Positions 1-38,468 of a stretch of 64,000 nucleotides of DNA are shown piece after piece; the stretch's first letter is position 1; every line of letters begins with the position of its first letter. The DNA is taken from assembly GCA_004298045.1 (NCBI GenBank), contig SCRM01000010.1, forward strand, positions 372,001-436,000, written 5' to 3'. This DNA comes from Rhodanobacter sp. GTDB lineage: Bacteria; Pseudomonadota; Gammaproteobacteria; Xanthomonadales; Rhodanobacteraceae. The translations under genes were made by a program, and so were the position numbers. The notes beneath the pieces are model-generated. The model was not told the origin of the DNA. It saw nothing but the letters and a program-made list of their open reading frames with translations, and did not search any database.

Positions 1-129
1 CTCGGCTACGCCGAGCAAGGCGTCGCCACCGCAGTGAACGGCCGCTTTGTCCCGCGCCCGGAACGCGCCGCCGTGTGCCTGGCCCCACGCGACCGGGTGG
101 AAATCCTCGCCCCGATGCAGGGAGGCTGA
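1..129 (+). CDS. thiS: ThiS sulfur-carrier protein, 3' end only
   Basis: This is the C-terminal 42 residues of a small ubiquitin-like protein; the gene begins before the window. The frame ends in Gly-Gly just before the stop, which is the hallmark of ThiS, the protein whose C-terminal glycine is adenylylated and then thiocarboxylated to deliver sulfur for the thiazole ring of thiamine. The visible part also has the typical 'AVNG' segment and the hydrophobic '[11 protein letters not shown]' end. The stop lies one base before the thiG start, so the two are translationally linked. The identification rests on the Gly-Gly end and on the following thiG, thiE and thiF-like genes. Confidence 0.85.
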
Positions 130-19305: not shown

Positions 19306-20673
19306 GTGTCCATAGCCAGCACCATTGAAAGCACCCCGATCACGGGGCGCCAGCAGCTTCTCGACTACATTGCGGCGGGCGAAAAACCGCTTGAGCGCTG
19401 GCGAATCGGCACCGAACACGAGAAATTCGGCTTCCGCACCGACGACCTGAAACCGCCCACGTACGAGGGCGAACGCGGCATCCGCGCGCTGCTGGAAGGC
19501 ATCGCGACGCGCCACGGCTGGAACCCGATCGCGGAGAACGGCAACCCCATCGCGCTCACCCGCGAGAAGGCCAACATCACGCTGGAGCCCGCCGGCCAGC
19601 TCGAGCTTTCCGGCGCGCCGCTGGAAACCATCCACCAGACCTGCTGCGAGGTGAGCACCCACCTCGCCGAGGTGCGGTCCGTCGCCGAACCGCTCGGCCT
19701 CGGCTTTCTCGGCATGGGCTTCCAGCCCAAGTGGCGGCGCGACGAGATGCCGTGGATGCCCAAGGGCCGCTACGCGATCATGCGCAAGTACATGCCCAAG
19801 GTCGGCAATCTCGGGCTGGACATGATGACCCGCACCTGCACGGTGCAGGTCAATCTCGATTTCGGCAGCGAAGCGGACATGGTGGAGAAGTTCCGCGTGG
19901 GCCTGGCGTTGCAGCCGATCGCCACCGCGCTGTTCGCCGACTCGCCGTTCACCGAGGGCAAGCCGAACGGCTACGACTCCTACCGCTCGCACATCTGGGA
20001 AGACACCGACCCCGACCGCACCGGCATGCTCGATTTCGTGTTCGAGGACGGCTTCGGCTACGAGCGCTATCTCGACTACATCCTCGACGTGCCGATGTAT
20101 TTCAGCGACCAGGCCACGGGCTACGTCGACCTCGCCGGCGAGGGCTTCAAGCGCTTCATGCGCGGCGAGCTGCCCCAGCTCCCCGGCGTCAAGGCAACCA
20201 TGCGCGACTTTGCCGACCACCTCACCACCGCGTTCCCCGAGGTGCGGCTCAAGCAATACCTGGAAATGCGCGGCGCCGACGGCGGCCCGTGGAACCGCCT
20301 GTGCGCGCTGCCGGCGCTGTGGGTCGGCCTGCTCTACGACCAGACCGCACTCGACTCGGCGTGGGATCTGGTCAAGGATTTCTCGCCCGCCGAACGCCAC
20401 GCGCTGCGCGCCGGCGTGCCGCAGCAGGCGCTGAAGCTGCCGTTCCGCAAAGGCACCGTGCGCGACCTCGCGCGCGAGGCGCTGAAGATCGCCGCCCACG
20501 GCCTCGAGCGCCGCGCCAAACTCAACCAGAACGGCGCCGACGAACGCATCTATCTGGGACCGCTGATCGAGATCGTCGAAGCCAACCAGACCCCGGCCGA
20601 ACGCAAGCTGGAGCTCTACCGCGGCGCCTGGGGCGGCAACGTGGACCACGTGTTCCGCGAGTTTGCGTATTGA
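19306..20673 (+). CDS. gshA: glutamate-cysteine ligase, plant/alphaproteobacterial type
   Basis: A 455-residue enzyme catalysing the first step of glutathione synthesis. It belongs to the GCS2 group found in plants, alphaproteobacteria and xanthomonads, not to the enterobacterial group: '[14 protein letters not shown]', '[22 protein letters not shown]' split across 78-100, '[19 protein letters not shown]' and '[11 protein letters not shown]' are characteristic. The start is GTG 19306 with AAGG ten bases upstream. It is convergent with the frameshifted ATPase gene, with seven bases between stops. This GshA type is one reason for suggesting Xanthomonadales. Confidence 0.94.
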
Positions 20674-20680
20674 GCGCTGG

Positions 20681-21722
20681 TCAATCCGCGAACCGGTCGC
20701 GTGCCACTTCGGCACGCCGGATCATTTGTTGGATTTCCGACACTACGTGGATGGCTTCCAGCTCGATGGCCGGGTGATCCAGCGCAAACACCCGGAAGAT
20801 CTCGTCCGCAAACGCCTGCCCGATGCTGCCGACCTCGGCAAAGTCGAGGACCACATGGCGGAAGCGATCCAGCCGCTGCATCAGCCACTTGGCCTGCGAG
20901 CGTGACACGAGGTTTCGCGCCCACGCGGGCCAGGCGCACCGGCACAACGGTCTTGGCAAAGTCGTAATCGTCCGGGCCACTGGAATACGCGTCGAACACC
21001 TGCTTCAGCGTGCGCGGCGACGTGGTGGCAATGGCCATGAAAACGGCAGTGCCGGCAGGCGGCAAATCGTCCGTATCGAACAAGACGTCGTGCGCGTCGC
21101 CTTCGGCATGCGCGTAGGTGAGGTCGTTGGCGACGATGCGGAACTCGTCGAACACGCGGGTGGTGAAAAACACGCCTTCGCCGGTGTGATGGCGCGGATC
21201 GGTGGTGAGCTTGCCTTTTGCCAGTTCCAGCAGCGACAAGCGCTCATCGGGAAGCACCAGCGCCTGCGCAATCTTGCGGAAAATGCCGACGCCATCGTCG
21301 GCAACCACGAGATGCAGCACGTCGTCGCGCAGATCGGCGGCCACCGTGACATGCACGGCACCCGAATGGTCGATTGCGTTGTTGACCATCTCGGTCACGC
21401 CGTAGTGGGCGATGTCGAACACGTTCGGTGCCAGTCCTCGCAGGACCGGCGCGAGCTGCGATGACCAGACGACATCCTCGGCCAGGCTGCGCCGGACGTA
21501 GCGTTGGACCGAGCGCCGGTTGCGCCCGAGCGAGTAGGTCGGCCGGGTGGTGCCGGACTTGTCGAGGTAGCCACTGGCAACCAAGTGCCGCACCTGCGTG
21601 CTGATGCGCGCGGTCGACAGGCCCAATTGCCGCGCGACCACGCTGACCAAGTCGCGCGGGTGGGCATCCACCGCTTGCAGCATGGCAAGCTCGATTTCGC
21701 TGGATCGGCTGGGTCGGGCCAT
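20681..21722 (-). pseudogene. HTH + histidine-kinase-like ATPase + DUF4325 protein, interrupted by a frameshift
   Basis: Two overlapping frames encode one recognisable protein. Residues 1-268 (21722-20919) give a winged helix (about 1-66), then a GHKL ATPase with N-box 'EMVNNAIDHSG' (111-121), G1 'DDGVGI' (142-147) and G2 'GEGVFFTTR' (181-189), but no histidine-phosphotransfer domain. The protein then continues in another frame from 20917 for 78 residues ('RNLVSRSQAKW' to 'RRAEVARDRFAD'), matching a STAS-like DUF4325 domain. A single extra base near 20918, in GGCGCGAAACC, explains the shift. Without repair, translation runs about 100 residues into unrelated sequence and overlaps gshA. The cause may be a true mutation, a sequencing error or, less likely, programmed shifting. 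The family role is not established; regulation by an ATPase/STAS pair is an inference. Confidence 0.8.
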
Positions 21723-21807
21723 GCGCCGACTCTGAAGTTAACCGGCTCTATTTGCTAGTTAAGGGTGATGCATTGACAATTTATGTCGTGCGAATCTGAG
21801 CTGCGAC

Positions 21808-36125: not shown

Positions 36126-38468
36126 GTGTCGCGCACCTTGTTCATATCCTCGCCGCTGCGTCAGCGGTTCCGGCCCTTGTGGTGGCTGGGCATCACCTAC
36201 CTCATCCTCAGTTTCATCACCCACGTGGCACTGCTGGTGATGAGCGGGCGCAACGTACCGCTGAACCCGCTGGACTGGTTGTATGCGTTCGGCGTCGGGC
36301 TGGGCTACGACCTCGTCACGTTCCTCTATCTGGCCTGGCCGCTGGTGCTTTATCTATGGCTGGTGCCGACGCGACGCGCGCCGGTCACCGGGGGCGCACG
36401 CTGGCTGGCTTGGCTCATCGGCATGGCCGCGCTGTACGGCGCGTGCCTGCTGGCGGTGTTCCTCTTGTGGCACGTGCACCTCAAGGAATCCTGGCCGCTG
36501 CTGGCGGTGTTCCTGTTTTTCCTGCCGCTGCCGGCGCTCAGTTACACCCGCGGCAGTGGCCAGTGGGGGTTGTACCTGCTTGGCCTCGCACTGCTCTACG
36601 GGCTGTTGTTCGTGGCCGCGTCCGAGCTGGTGTTCTGGAACGAGTTCAGCGTGCGCTTCAATTTCATCGCGGTGGACTACCTCGTCTACACCACCGAGGT
36701 GATCGGCAATATCCGCGAGTCGTATCCGGTCGGCACCTGGCTGGCGCTGCTGGTGGTGCTGGCGCTGGTGATGTTCATCGCCTCGCGACGCAAATTGCGT
36801 GCGCGCGACGACGGCAGCACGCTGTGGCAGCGCGCGCGGGTGCCACTGGTGTGGCTGGTGTTGACGGTAGCCACAGTGGCCGGCATCAACGGCGAAATGA
36901 AGGACCGCACCGCCAACAACTACGTCAACGAGCTTTCCGGCAACGGCATCTATCAGTTCTTTGCCGCGTTCCGGTCGAGCCACCTGGATTTCAAGAAGTT
37001 CTACCGCTCACTGCCGGATGCCGAGGCGTTTGCCCTCGTGCGCAAGGATCTTGCCGCACCAAATGCCACCTTCATCAGCAACGACCCGCGCGACCTGACG
37101 CGCGAGATCCGCGCCGCCGGACCGGAAAAGCACCTGAACGTGGTGCTGATCAGCGTGGAAAGCCTCTCCGGCGACTACCTCGCCACCTTCGGCAACCAGC
37201 AGGGCATCACGCCGTTCCTGGATTCGCTGGTCGGCAAGAGCCTGTTTTTCGACAACCTGTATGCCAACGGCACGCGCACGGTGCGCGGGCTCGAAGCACT
37301 GTCGCTGTCGGTGCCGCCGACACCGGGTGACTCGCTGGTGCGTGCAAAGGACAACGAAAACCTGTTCTCGCTGGCCAGCGTGTTCAATGATCGCGGCTAC
37401 GTGTCGGAGTTTGTCTACGGCGGCTACGGCTACTTCGACAACATGAATTATTTCTTCGGCCACAACGGCTACATCGATGTGGACCGCAGCGCGATTCCGA
37501 AGGACATGCCGATCCACAGCCAGAACGTGTGGGGCGTGTCCGACGAGGATCTCTACACCCTGGCGCTGCGCCAGATGGACCAGATCGCGGGCGAGCACAA
37601 GCCGTTCTTCCTGCACATCATGACCACCTCCAACCACCGGCCGTACACCTACCCGGCCGGGCGGGTGAAGTGGCCGGCGCCCTCGCGCCTGGGCGCGGTG
37701 GCCTACACTGACTGGGCGATCAAGGACTTGATCGAGCGCGCGCGCACCAAGCCGTACTTCGCCAACACGGTGTTCGTGATCACCGCCGACCATTGCGCAT
37801 CGAGCGCCGGCAAGACCAGCATCCCGATCAACCGTTACCACATCCCGTTGTGGATCTACGCGCCGAAATGGGTCACCCCGCGCCGGGTGGGGACGCTCAT
37901 GGGCCAGCTCGACATCCCGCCGACGCTGCTTGGTCTTTTGGACTTCAGCTACCGCTCGCGCTTCTTTGGCCAGGATGTATTCCAGCGCCCGGCGGACGCG
38001 GGCCACGCCTTCCCCGGCACCTACGAAAAACTCGGCTACGTGCACGGCGACACGCTGACCATCCTCGAACCGCGCCAGCGCATCGAACAGTTGAAGCCGG
38101 ACTTTGCGACCGGCGACGCGACCCCGGTCAGCCCGGTCAACCAGTCGCTGCTGGACACCACGATCGCCTATTACCAGGTAGCCAGCGATCTGTACCAGCA
38201 CGGCGGGCTCGCGCGTCGCGCCGCGGACAGCACCAAGGTGGCGCCGCTGCCGACGGCAACGCCTGCGCCGGCCGCTCCTGCACCGGAGACACCTGCGACC
38301 CAGCCTGCGCCTGTGGGCAACGCGGCGCCTGCGGCCAGCGCGACCGTACCGGCCACTGCGACGAGCACGGCGGTAAAGCCGGTATCCATGGTTGCGTTGC
38401 ACGCTGCTCCGTCCATGGCGCCAGCGGCGAGCACGGTCGCGCCTGCCGCTGCGGGTTCGGCCGGATGA
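36126..38468 (+). CDS. LTA-synthase-like membrane phosphotransferase/sulfatase-superfamily protein
   Basis: A 780-residue protein of the alkaline-phosphatase superfamily. Five membrane helices occupy about residues 18-240; the extracytoplasmic domain follows. Metal and catalytic motifs are 'ISVESLSGDYL' with Glu345, 'YANGTRTVRGLEA' with the likely nucleophile Thr385 (Thr383 is adjacent), and 'VITADHCAS' with Asp-His. In Gram-negatives such proteins (OpgB/MdoB, or phosphoethanolamine transferases) modify periplasmic glucans or LPS; the nearby GH17 protein makes glucan substitution attractive but unproven. The last about 80 residues are Ala/Pro/Thr-rich and probably disordered. The start is GTG 36126 with CGGAG ten bases upstream; the frame open from 35892 is not supported. 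Confidence 0.85.
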   Translation: MSRTLFISSPLRQRFRPLWWLGITYLILSFITHVALLVMSGRNVPLNPLDWLYAFGVGLGYDLVTFLYLAWPLVLYLWLVPTRRAPVTGGARWLAWLIGMAALYGACLLAVFLLWHVHLKESWPLLAVFLFFLPLPALSYTRGSGQWGLYLLGLALLYGLLFVAASELVFWNEFSVRFNFIAVDYLVYTTEVIGNIRESYPVGTWLALLVVLALVMFIASRRKLRARDDGSTLWQRARVPLVWLVLTVATVAGINGEMKDRTANNYVNELSGNGIYQFFAAFRSSHLDFKKFYRSLPDAEAFALVRKDLAAPNATFISNDPRDLTREIRAAGPEKHLNVVLISVESLSGDYLATFGNQQGITPFLDSLVGKSLFFDNLYANGTRTVRGLEALSLSVPPTPGDSLVRAKDNENLFSLASVFNDRGYVSEFVYGGYGYFDNMNYFFGHNGYIDVDRSAIPKDMPIHSQNVWGVSDEDLYTLALRQMDQIAGEHKPFFLHIMTTSNHRPYTYPAGRVKWPAPSRLGAVAYTDWAIKDLIERARTKPYFANTVFVITADHCASSAGKTSIPINRYHIPLWIYAPKWVTPRRVGTLMGQLDIPPTLLGLLDFSYRSRFFGQDVFQRPADAGHAFPGTYEKLGYVHGDTLTILEPRQRIEQLKPDFATGDATPVSPVNQSLLDTTIAYYQVASDLYQHGGLARRAADSTKVAPLPTATPAPAAPAPETPATQPAPVGNAAPAASATVPATATSTAVKPVSMVALHAAPSMAPAASTVAPAAAGSAG

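Follow-up and report, generated by a model that had tools for sequence, protein, structure and literature searches.

Several described regulators come close to the gene family treated here. SpoIIAB and RsbW act with the partner proteins SpoIIAA and RsbV, and SpoIIAA docks on SpoIIAB. Rv1364c-type regulators (PDB 3ke6) have an RsbW-like domain fused to further regulatory domains, and we know of no winged helix or operator array among them. Autoregulated one-component repressors of the IclR/MarR type use palindromic operators. The C-terminal domain of the family scores above the gathering threshold of Pfam DUF4325 (PF14213), a name that carries no function; in the literature searched no role for DUF4325 was found, the term being met there as table entries. 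No description of the domain combination, or of regulation through a repeat array of the type reported below, was found in the literature searched. The family is nevertheless widespread: scanning GTDB genomes gave at least 493 relatives. Our reading, to which we give a probability of about two in three, joins two statements: the copy in the window is a pseudogene in the making, and the intact family works as a self-regulating, ATP-gated switch made of a single gene.

The window is the whole 64-kb stretch of DNA that was analysed. On its minus strand, from 21722 to 20681, the HTH/GHKL-ATPase portion of the gene and its DUF4325 (STAS-like) portion are in different reading frames. The N part (20919 to 21722, minus; residues 1 to about 268) comprises a winged helix and a SpoIIAB/RsbW-like GHKL ATPase, as judged from the open reading frame, Pfam and the predicted fold of an intact relative. 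It belongs to an ORF of 368 amino acids (21722 to 20616, minus) that begins with the family sequence and then continues out of frame for about 100 residues (20616 to 20910, minus), entering the 3' end of the oppositely oriented glutamate-cysteine ligase gene. The C part (20681 to 20911, minus) lies within a separate ORF of 99 amino acids (20980 to 20681, minus), and in it the alignment shows one residue replaced that is the same in all 48 intact relatives compared. The gene is flanked by the glutamate-cysteine ligase gene gshA (TIGR01436; 19306 to 20673, plus) and by a peptidyl-dipeptidase Dcp of the M3 type (NF007624; 21870 to 24131, minus), both identified by ORF and profile.

Pfam matches back the three domains that the earlier note had named. 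DUF4325 is found in the tail ORF (E 4.9e-12; 45.8 bits against a gathering score of 23) and HATPase_c_2 in the N part (E 8e-7; 29.6 against 27.4 bits), along with a MarR_2-type HTH that falls slightly below its curated cut-off (E 1.2e-5). The ATPase had also been described as kinase-like with no phospho-acceptor histidine domain, in agreement with the lack of any HisKA model among the Pfam matches of the window pieces (E 1) and of two intact relatives, L061 and L112 (E 0.001).

The break itself, between two reading frames as the note had it, is well placed. A join pattern occurs once within the window, at 20911 to 20921 on the minus strand, and a frame-aware coding model puts the switch at 20914. 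Of the 33 gene copies that served to train this model, 32 came from relatives and one was the gshA of the window, with retraining on the window as a second step; one peptidase piece in the training set was probably in the wrong frame. Intact relatives cross the join without interruption through VGDENLVSRSQAKR or close variants, and in the window the break sits at a run of three A, with no long homopolymer. The description of the break as a one-base frameshift is right as to the net shift, which equally corresponds to two bases modulo three, the event itself not being readable from the sequence. The interval given earlier (20681 to 21722) also leaves out a repeat array immediately upstream, at 21728 to 21784.

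Intact copies were sampled as the best 80 of the at least 493 GTDB relatives, and best-scoring rows favour intact copies. They fall in Pseudomonadota (64), Cyanobacteriota (8), Acidobacteriota (4) and, with one each, Bacteroidota, Planctomycetota and Verrucomicrobiota, one being unassigned; many are metagenome-assembled genomes (MAGs), and the phyla with a single row may reflect contamination. One open frame of at least 342 amino acids is present in 79 of the 80. The tail motif was detected in 75, and the remaining five have full-length frames. The sole broken copy among them, in the cyanobacterial relative L115, has an in-frame stop in the N part. DUF4325 is recognised in L061 (51.2 bits) and L112 (56.9 bits), and HTH_IclR in L061 (28.5 against 22 bits); no NCBIfam model matches either protein at E 1e-10, and the solved structures matched by sequence cover the ATPase region only. 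The copy in L072, a MAG named Tagaea (Rhodospirillaceae), is nested among Lysobacterales copies in the tree, by contamination or transfer.

The fold was predicted for the intact protein of Rhodanobacter sp. PCA2, to which that of the nearest genome, G001, is 100% identical. The AlphaFold2 model, built with a 48-row alignment, has a pLDDT of 83.5 and a pTM of 0.74. In the PDB it comes closest to SpoIIAB chains, with a Foldseek E of 9.8e-7 and a Z of 13.8 (3.3 A, 135 residues, model residues 67 to 236); Rv1364c, RsbW and further anti-sigma chains follow at Z 11.7 to 12.5, then LvrC at 11.0 and DesK at 9.1. The winged helix (model residues 5 to 66) matches common winged helices with Z up to 9.0. 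E111, N114, N115, D142, G144, G146, G181 and G183 are invariant in 48 relatives, and we take these residues to represent the N, G1 and G2 boxes of a GHKL ATPase.

Modelled alone, the tail reaches a pLDDT of 74 and matches RsbS (Z 7.3) and SpoIIAA (Z 7.0), with a best Foldseek E of 8e-3. Many of the matches listed are STAS domains, but every match is below Z 8, short of what we would regard as secure, and clamp-loader chains are found there as well. The residue preceding the IGQ/VGQ motif of the tail, which we assume to be the STAS phospho-acceptor position, is variable (A, T, R, S, M, E or Q in the aligned rows shown). Judged by alignment, the STAS-like domain thus appears to have no conserved phospho-acceptor Ser/Thr.

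Among the genomes searched, the gene is patchy. Of 99 genomes, with that of the window included, 12 gave matches: the window's own, eight in which the family protein is complete, and three in which weak matches are confined to the ATPase. One of the eight whole-family genomes has a second, weak match, and the weak matches range from E 4.9e-6 to 5.3e-4. The gene is thus present in 9 of the 99, and the eight close relatives each have it as one open frame of 346 to 355 amino acids. At E 1e-3 it is absent from 13 of the 14 other genomes of the genus, three of the 13 being only 85-87% complete.

The position between gshA and dcp is shared by the window and three other genomes (G001, G036 and G045). 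The gshA locus was compared in 12 of the 13 gene-free congeners, and dcp lies inside 1.5 kb in ten. In those ten the gap measures 61 to 71 bp in five, 153 bp in one and 609 to 1,435 bp, filled with other sequence, in four. A tblastn search of 19 gaps with the family at E 1 (12 of them from the same genus, the whole flank being used where dcp was not seen) gave one match at chance level (E 0.042). Between gshA and dcp, the locus L041 (714 to 1501) holds two small genes that by eye resemble a toxin-antitoxin pair of the ParD/RelE type, at the place taken by the family gene in other species. The broken copy in the window is itself most likely a case of ordinary gene loss.

Rates of change argue that the break belongs to real decay rather than to sequencing error, through an acceleration specific to this lineage. 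With Rudaea as the outgroup, the N part has 32 window-only against 11 G001-only changes (p 0.0019), and the flanking genes show no significant difference (gshA 26 against 18, Dcp 36 against 28); the tail, at 9 against 4, is likewise not significant (p 0.27). With G036 as the reference the counts are 40 against 8 for the N part, 16 against 2 for the tail and 29 against 37 for Dcp, in a comparison weakened by a flanking gshA that is fast as well (37 against 15, p 0.003). In the 81-row tree the window copy has a terminal branch of 0.41, against 0.085, 0.034 and 0.040 for the three intact relatives closest to it. Of 55 positions that do not vary among 48 relatives, the window copy differs at two, including a tail arginine; when each of the 48 intact rows is left out in turn, the mean is 0.35 such changes and the maximum two, reached by two rows.

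The best surviving alternative is that a sequencing or assembly error interrupts an otherwise working gene. Its dN/dS is low in both parts (0.18-0.32 in the N part, 0.07-0.27 in the C part, overlapping the values of intact pairs), which fits an error or a recent break alike, and the nearest repeat copy upstream still stands 6 nt from the ATG by eye, as would be expected of a working gene. Against this, a single error leaves both the acceleration and the altered invariant residue unexplained, and the site is a run of three A, not a long homopolymer. Frame errors in the assembly are at most occasional. In the window the coding model reports six frame events, four of them ordinary gene junctions, one at 38177 near the end of a gene model, and the break at 20914. 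A further 200 kb of the same contig yields seven candidates, two at the ends of stretches and five others. In all, 264 kb (225 kb called coding) contain nine frame events outside junctions, the break included. Five events on the same contig that the coding model does not explain as gene junctions lie at 2554, 7113 and 17973 in L146, at 6554 in L141 and at 4046 in L150. Decay is accordingly the likelier cause of the break and an error a possible but unlikely one, and the window gene is probably a decaying copy, a pseudogene in the making.

Upstream of the gene, relatives carry direct repeats close to TAACTTTACAATC or TAAGGTTGACAATA. A 14-base matrix refined on the counted regions detects pairs or longer series of copies spaced by 20-23 bp in 72 of 81 loci (the 80 relatives and the window); 46 loci have at least three in register, and 122 of the 140 spacings are 21 or 22 bp. 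Applied to 20 shuffled sets of the 81 regions, this matrix gives no locus with an in-register pair in any set; in 20 random draws from other parts of these loci it gives 0 or 1 per draw. A motif-free self-match over shifts of 10 to 40 gives 21 or 22 as the best shift in 67 of the 81 loci; with one shuffle of each locus, 21 and 22 fall outside the 12 commonest shifts. Nine loci have no in-register pair. Two of these, L080 and L123, have another repeat sequence at the same 21-22 bp period (0 of 100 shuffles as good); L081 is borderline at a different shift (11 of 13 at shift 15, 5 of 100 shuffles as good), and in L066, L072, L074, L089, L097 and L127 the self-match is no better than in shuffles. 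In L123, whose terminal branch is the longest in the tree (0.93), two direct repeats of different sequence are spaced by 22 bp, and a third, inverted copy can be seen by eye immediately before the start codon.

The array reaches down to the gene. The last counted repeat ends a median of 6 nt from the start codon and lies within 9 nt of it in 47 of 71 loci. In many Xanthomonadales copies (L061 to L094) a last repeat of TTTACAAT or a close variant is followed by exactly 6 nt and the ATG, a fixed distance that suggests a leaderless transcript. In L096 and L103 a stretch resembling a ribosome-binding site and the start codon itself are both overlapped by the last repeat, which in L103 reads GGAGGTTGACAAATG. 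The window retains copies at 21771-21784, 21749-21762 and 21728-21741 on the minus strand, spaced 22 and 21 bp apart (profile match E 0.0017, for an array outside the training set). The matrix counted the first two, the second of which is 27 nt from the ATG, and the third, below threshold, stands by eye 6 nt from it, as in close relatives. A separate decay of the window operator was considered and dropped, since one intact relative scores as low (20.0 bits, against 20.1 in the window).

Genome-wide, the array keeps to its own gene. Two profiles were built from sequence only, R1 from 19 arrays and R2 from 20. R1 matches each of 19 gene-bearing genomes once, at E 0.0023 or below, and by coordinates every match lies no more than about 10 nt from the gene; eight of the matched arrays were outside its training set (G000, G036, G037, G040 and the genomes of L062, L065, L066 and L077). 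R2 has a single strong match in each of 20 genomes, located at the own gene with E 0.003 or lower, with L111, L136 and L138 outside training; its 34 further rows are at E 0.03 or above, and one of them lies beside an own array. R2 scored 150 first-look candidates in 14 of its 20 genomes, and R1 did likewise in one of 19, so that weak second sites can escape. A strong array at the own gene is therefore found once per genome in 39 of 39 genomes, and R1 has no match in 20 gene-free relatives, the 19 gene-bearing genomes serving as the positive control. The pattern TTGACAA-13..15-TTGACAA occurs at 31 places in the 20 genomes of R2, 26 of them at the own gene and five elsewhere; the reversed pattern occurs at four. 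In the genomes searched, arrays of two or more repeats are not found elsewhere beyond chance. One Rhodocyclaceae MAG holds two relatives of the gene, L086 and L104, and their arrays are of different types.

These features bear on what reads the array. It accompanies the gene and is absent from the gene-free relatives searched, two loci have kept its period with an altered sequence, and the arrays of L086 and L104 differ; binding by the protein's own winged helix would be the simplest account. The alternative is that the array consists of overlapping promoters and nothing more, or is the site of another regulator. Consecutive repeats do generate, by arithmetic on the motif, TTGACA/TTTACA and GACAAT/TACAAT 17-18 bp apart, which we take to be -35-like and -10-like hexamers, and the short distance from the last repeat to the start codon suits a promoter as well. 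A general promoter, or the site of a global regulator, should however recur at other places in the genome or in relatives that lack the gene, and no strong copy was found there. The conservation of the repeats also reaches beyond the two hexamers, and L080 and L123 keep the 21-22 bp period with repeats of other sequence. We consider this alternative unlikely, slightly more so than an error at the break. A specific covariation of recognition helix and operator was tried and rejected, because, although HTH sequence does follow array sequence, an ATPase window tracks the array as well or better (13-residue windows; Spearman 0.66 for residues 33-45 and 0.69 for residues 207-219 in the ATPase, partial correlation 0.53 for both).

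Under the preferred reading of a self-regulating switch, the winged helix would bind the direct repeats, which recur every two helical turns along one face of the DNA. Since the repeats contain -35/-10-like hexamers and the array extends over the promoter to the start codon, the bound protein most likely shuts its own promoter; it would in any case control its own transcription, repression being likelier than activation. The SpoIIAB/RsbW-like GHKL domain may bind ATP and pair subunits, making the switch depend on ATP, and the STAS-like tail may dock on the GHKL domain of the same chain, in the manner of SpoIIAA on SpoIIAB, and so tune it. A bolder version is that the family acts on itself alone in several phyla, with one operator array per genome, no regulon, and an output through protein contact or read-through. 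We hold this tentatively, at somewhat less than even odds; Pseudomonadota, Cyanobacteriota and Acidobacteriota are represented by more than one row, and three more phyla by single MAG rows. The odd feature would be a conserved regulator that is itself the one visible target. The array offers a precise and cheap handle on the family, with a predicted site, register and promoter geometry.

In one group of copies the setting goes further. At L094 (2910 to 8602) the gene stands in an olefin cluster, between 3-oxoacyl-ACP synthase III and a hydrolase, olefin beta-lactone synthetase and OleD, and it overlaps the start of the hydrolase gene. Neighbour clusters suggest the same setting, in part, in L066, L073, L077 and L078. 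In some Lysobacteraceae the array would thus also drive the downstream enzymes.

A role in defence or stress, which the earlier note had raised as a possible kind of switch, looks improbable. The patchy occurrence of the gene is what such a module would show, but the defence, neighbourhood, phage and plasmid searches gave it no support. The best PADLOC match of the window pieces has E 0.0097 and is confined to the HTH. No neighbour cluster is common to more than six of the 80 loci, by a simple gene caller that at times chose the antisense frame and called the family gene itself in 75 of the 80. There were no matches in 50,697 phage records (Rhodanobacter query only, E 1e-5) or in 72,556 plasmid records (one gammaproteobacterial query, E 1e-10). 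An identity with phrog_142, 'Ren-like exclusion protein', was set aside, the weak HTH match (E 3.5e-4) being read as a shared HTH only.

The note had also allowed that the frame is intact in the cell through an error or a programmed shift; the first keeps the small chance given above, and the second, a programmed frameshift yielding a short and a full-length protein, is very improbable, for although the tail is recognisable in its own frame, the eight close relatives translate through the join without a stop and 79 of the 80 GTDB relatives are open in one frame, none of the eight or the 80 has a shift or break at the join, and the switch reads GCG AAA CCT, by eye with neither a stop nor a shift motif familiar to us. 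None of these relatives was found to end at residue 268 or to read the out-of-frame tail.

Set beside the known systems, the family resembles SpoIIAB/SpoIIAA and RsbW/RsbV. It appears to share their GHKL fold, SpoIIAB coming first in both fold searches with the full model, and its tail may be a STAS-like counterpart of their partner proteins, RsbS and SpoIIAA leading the list for the tail alone. Unlike them, it has both domains in one chain, behind a DNA-binding domain, and no conserved Ser/Thr next to IGQ/VGQ; nor is it a SpoIIAB in the strict sense, the window N part scoring 16 bits against the cut-off of 135 for the SpoIIAB equivalog TIGR01925. Rv1364c-type regulators offer a precedent for fusion of an RsbW-like domain (Z 12.5 over 109 residues). 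With the IclR/MarR-type repressors the family shares a winged helix and its own promoter as the likely target, but it has an ATPase where they have a ligand domain, and direct repeats two turns apart in place of their palindrome.
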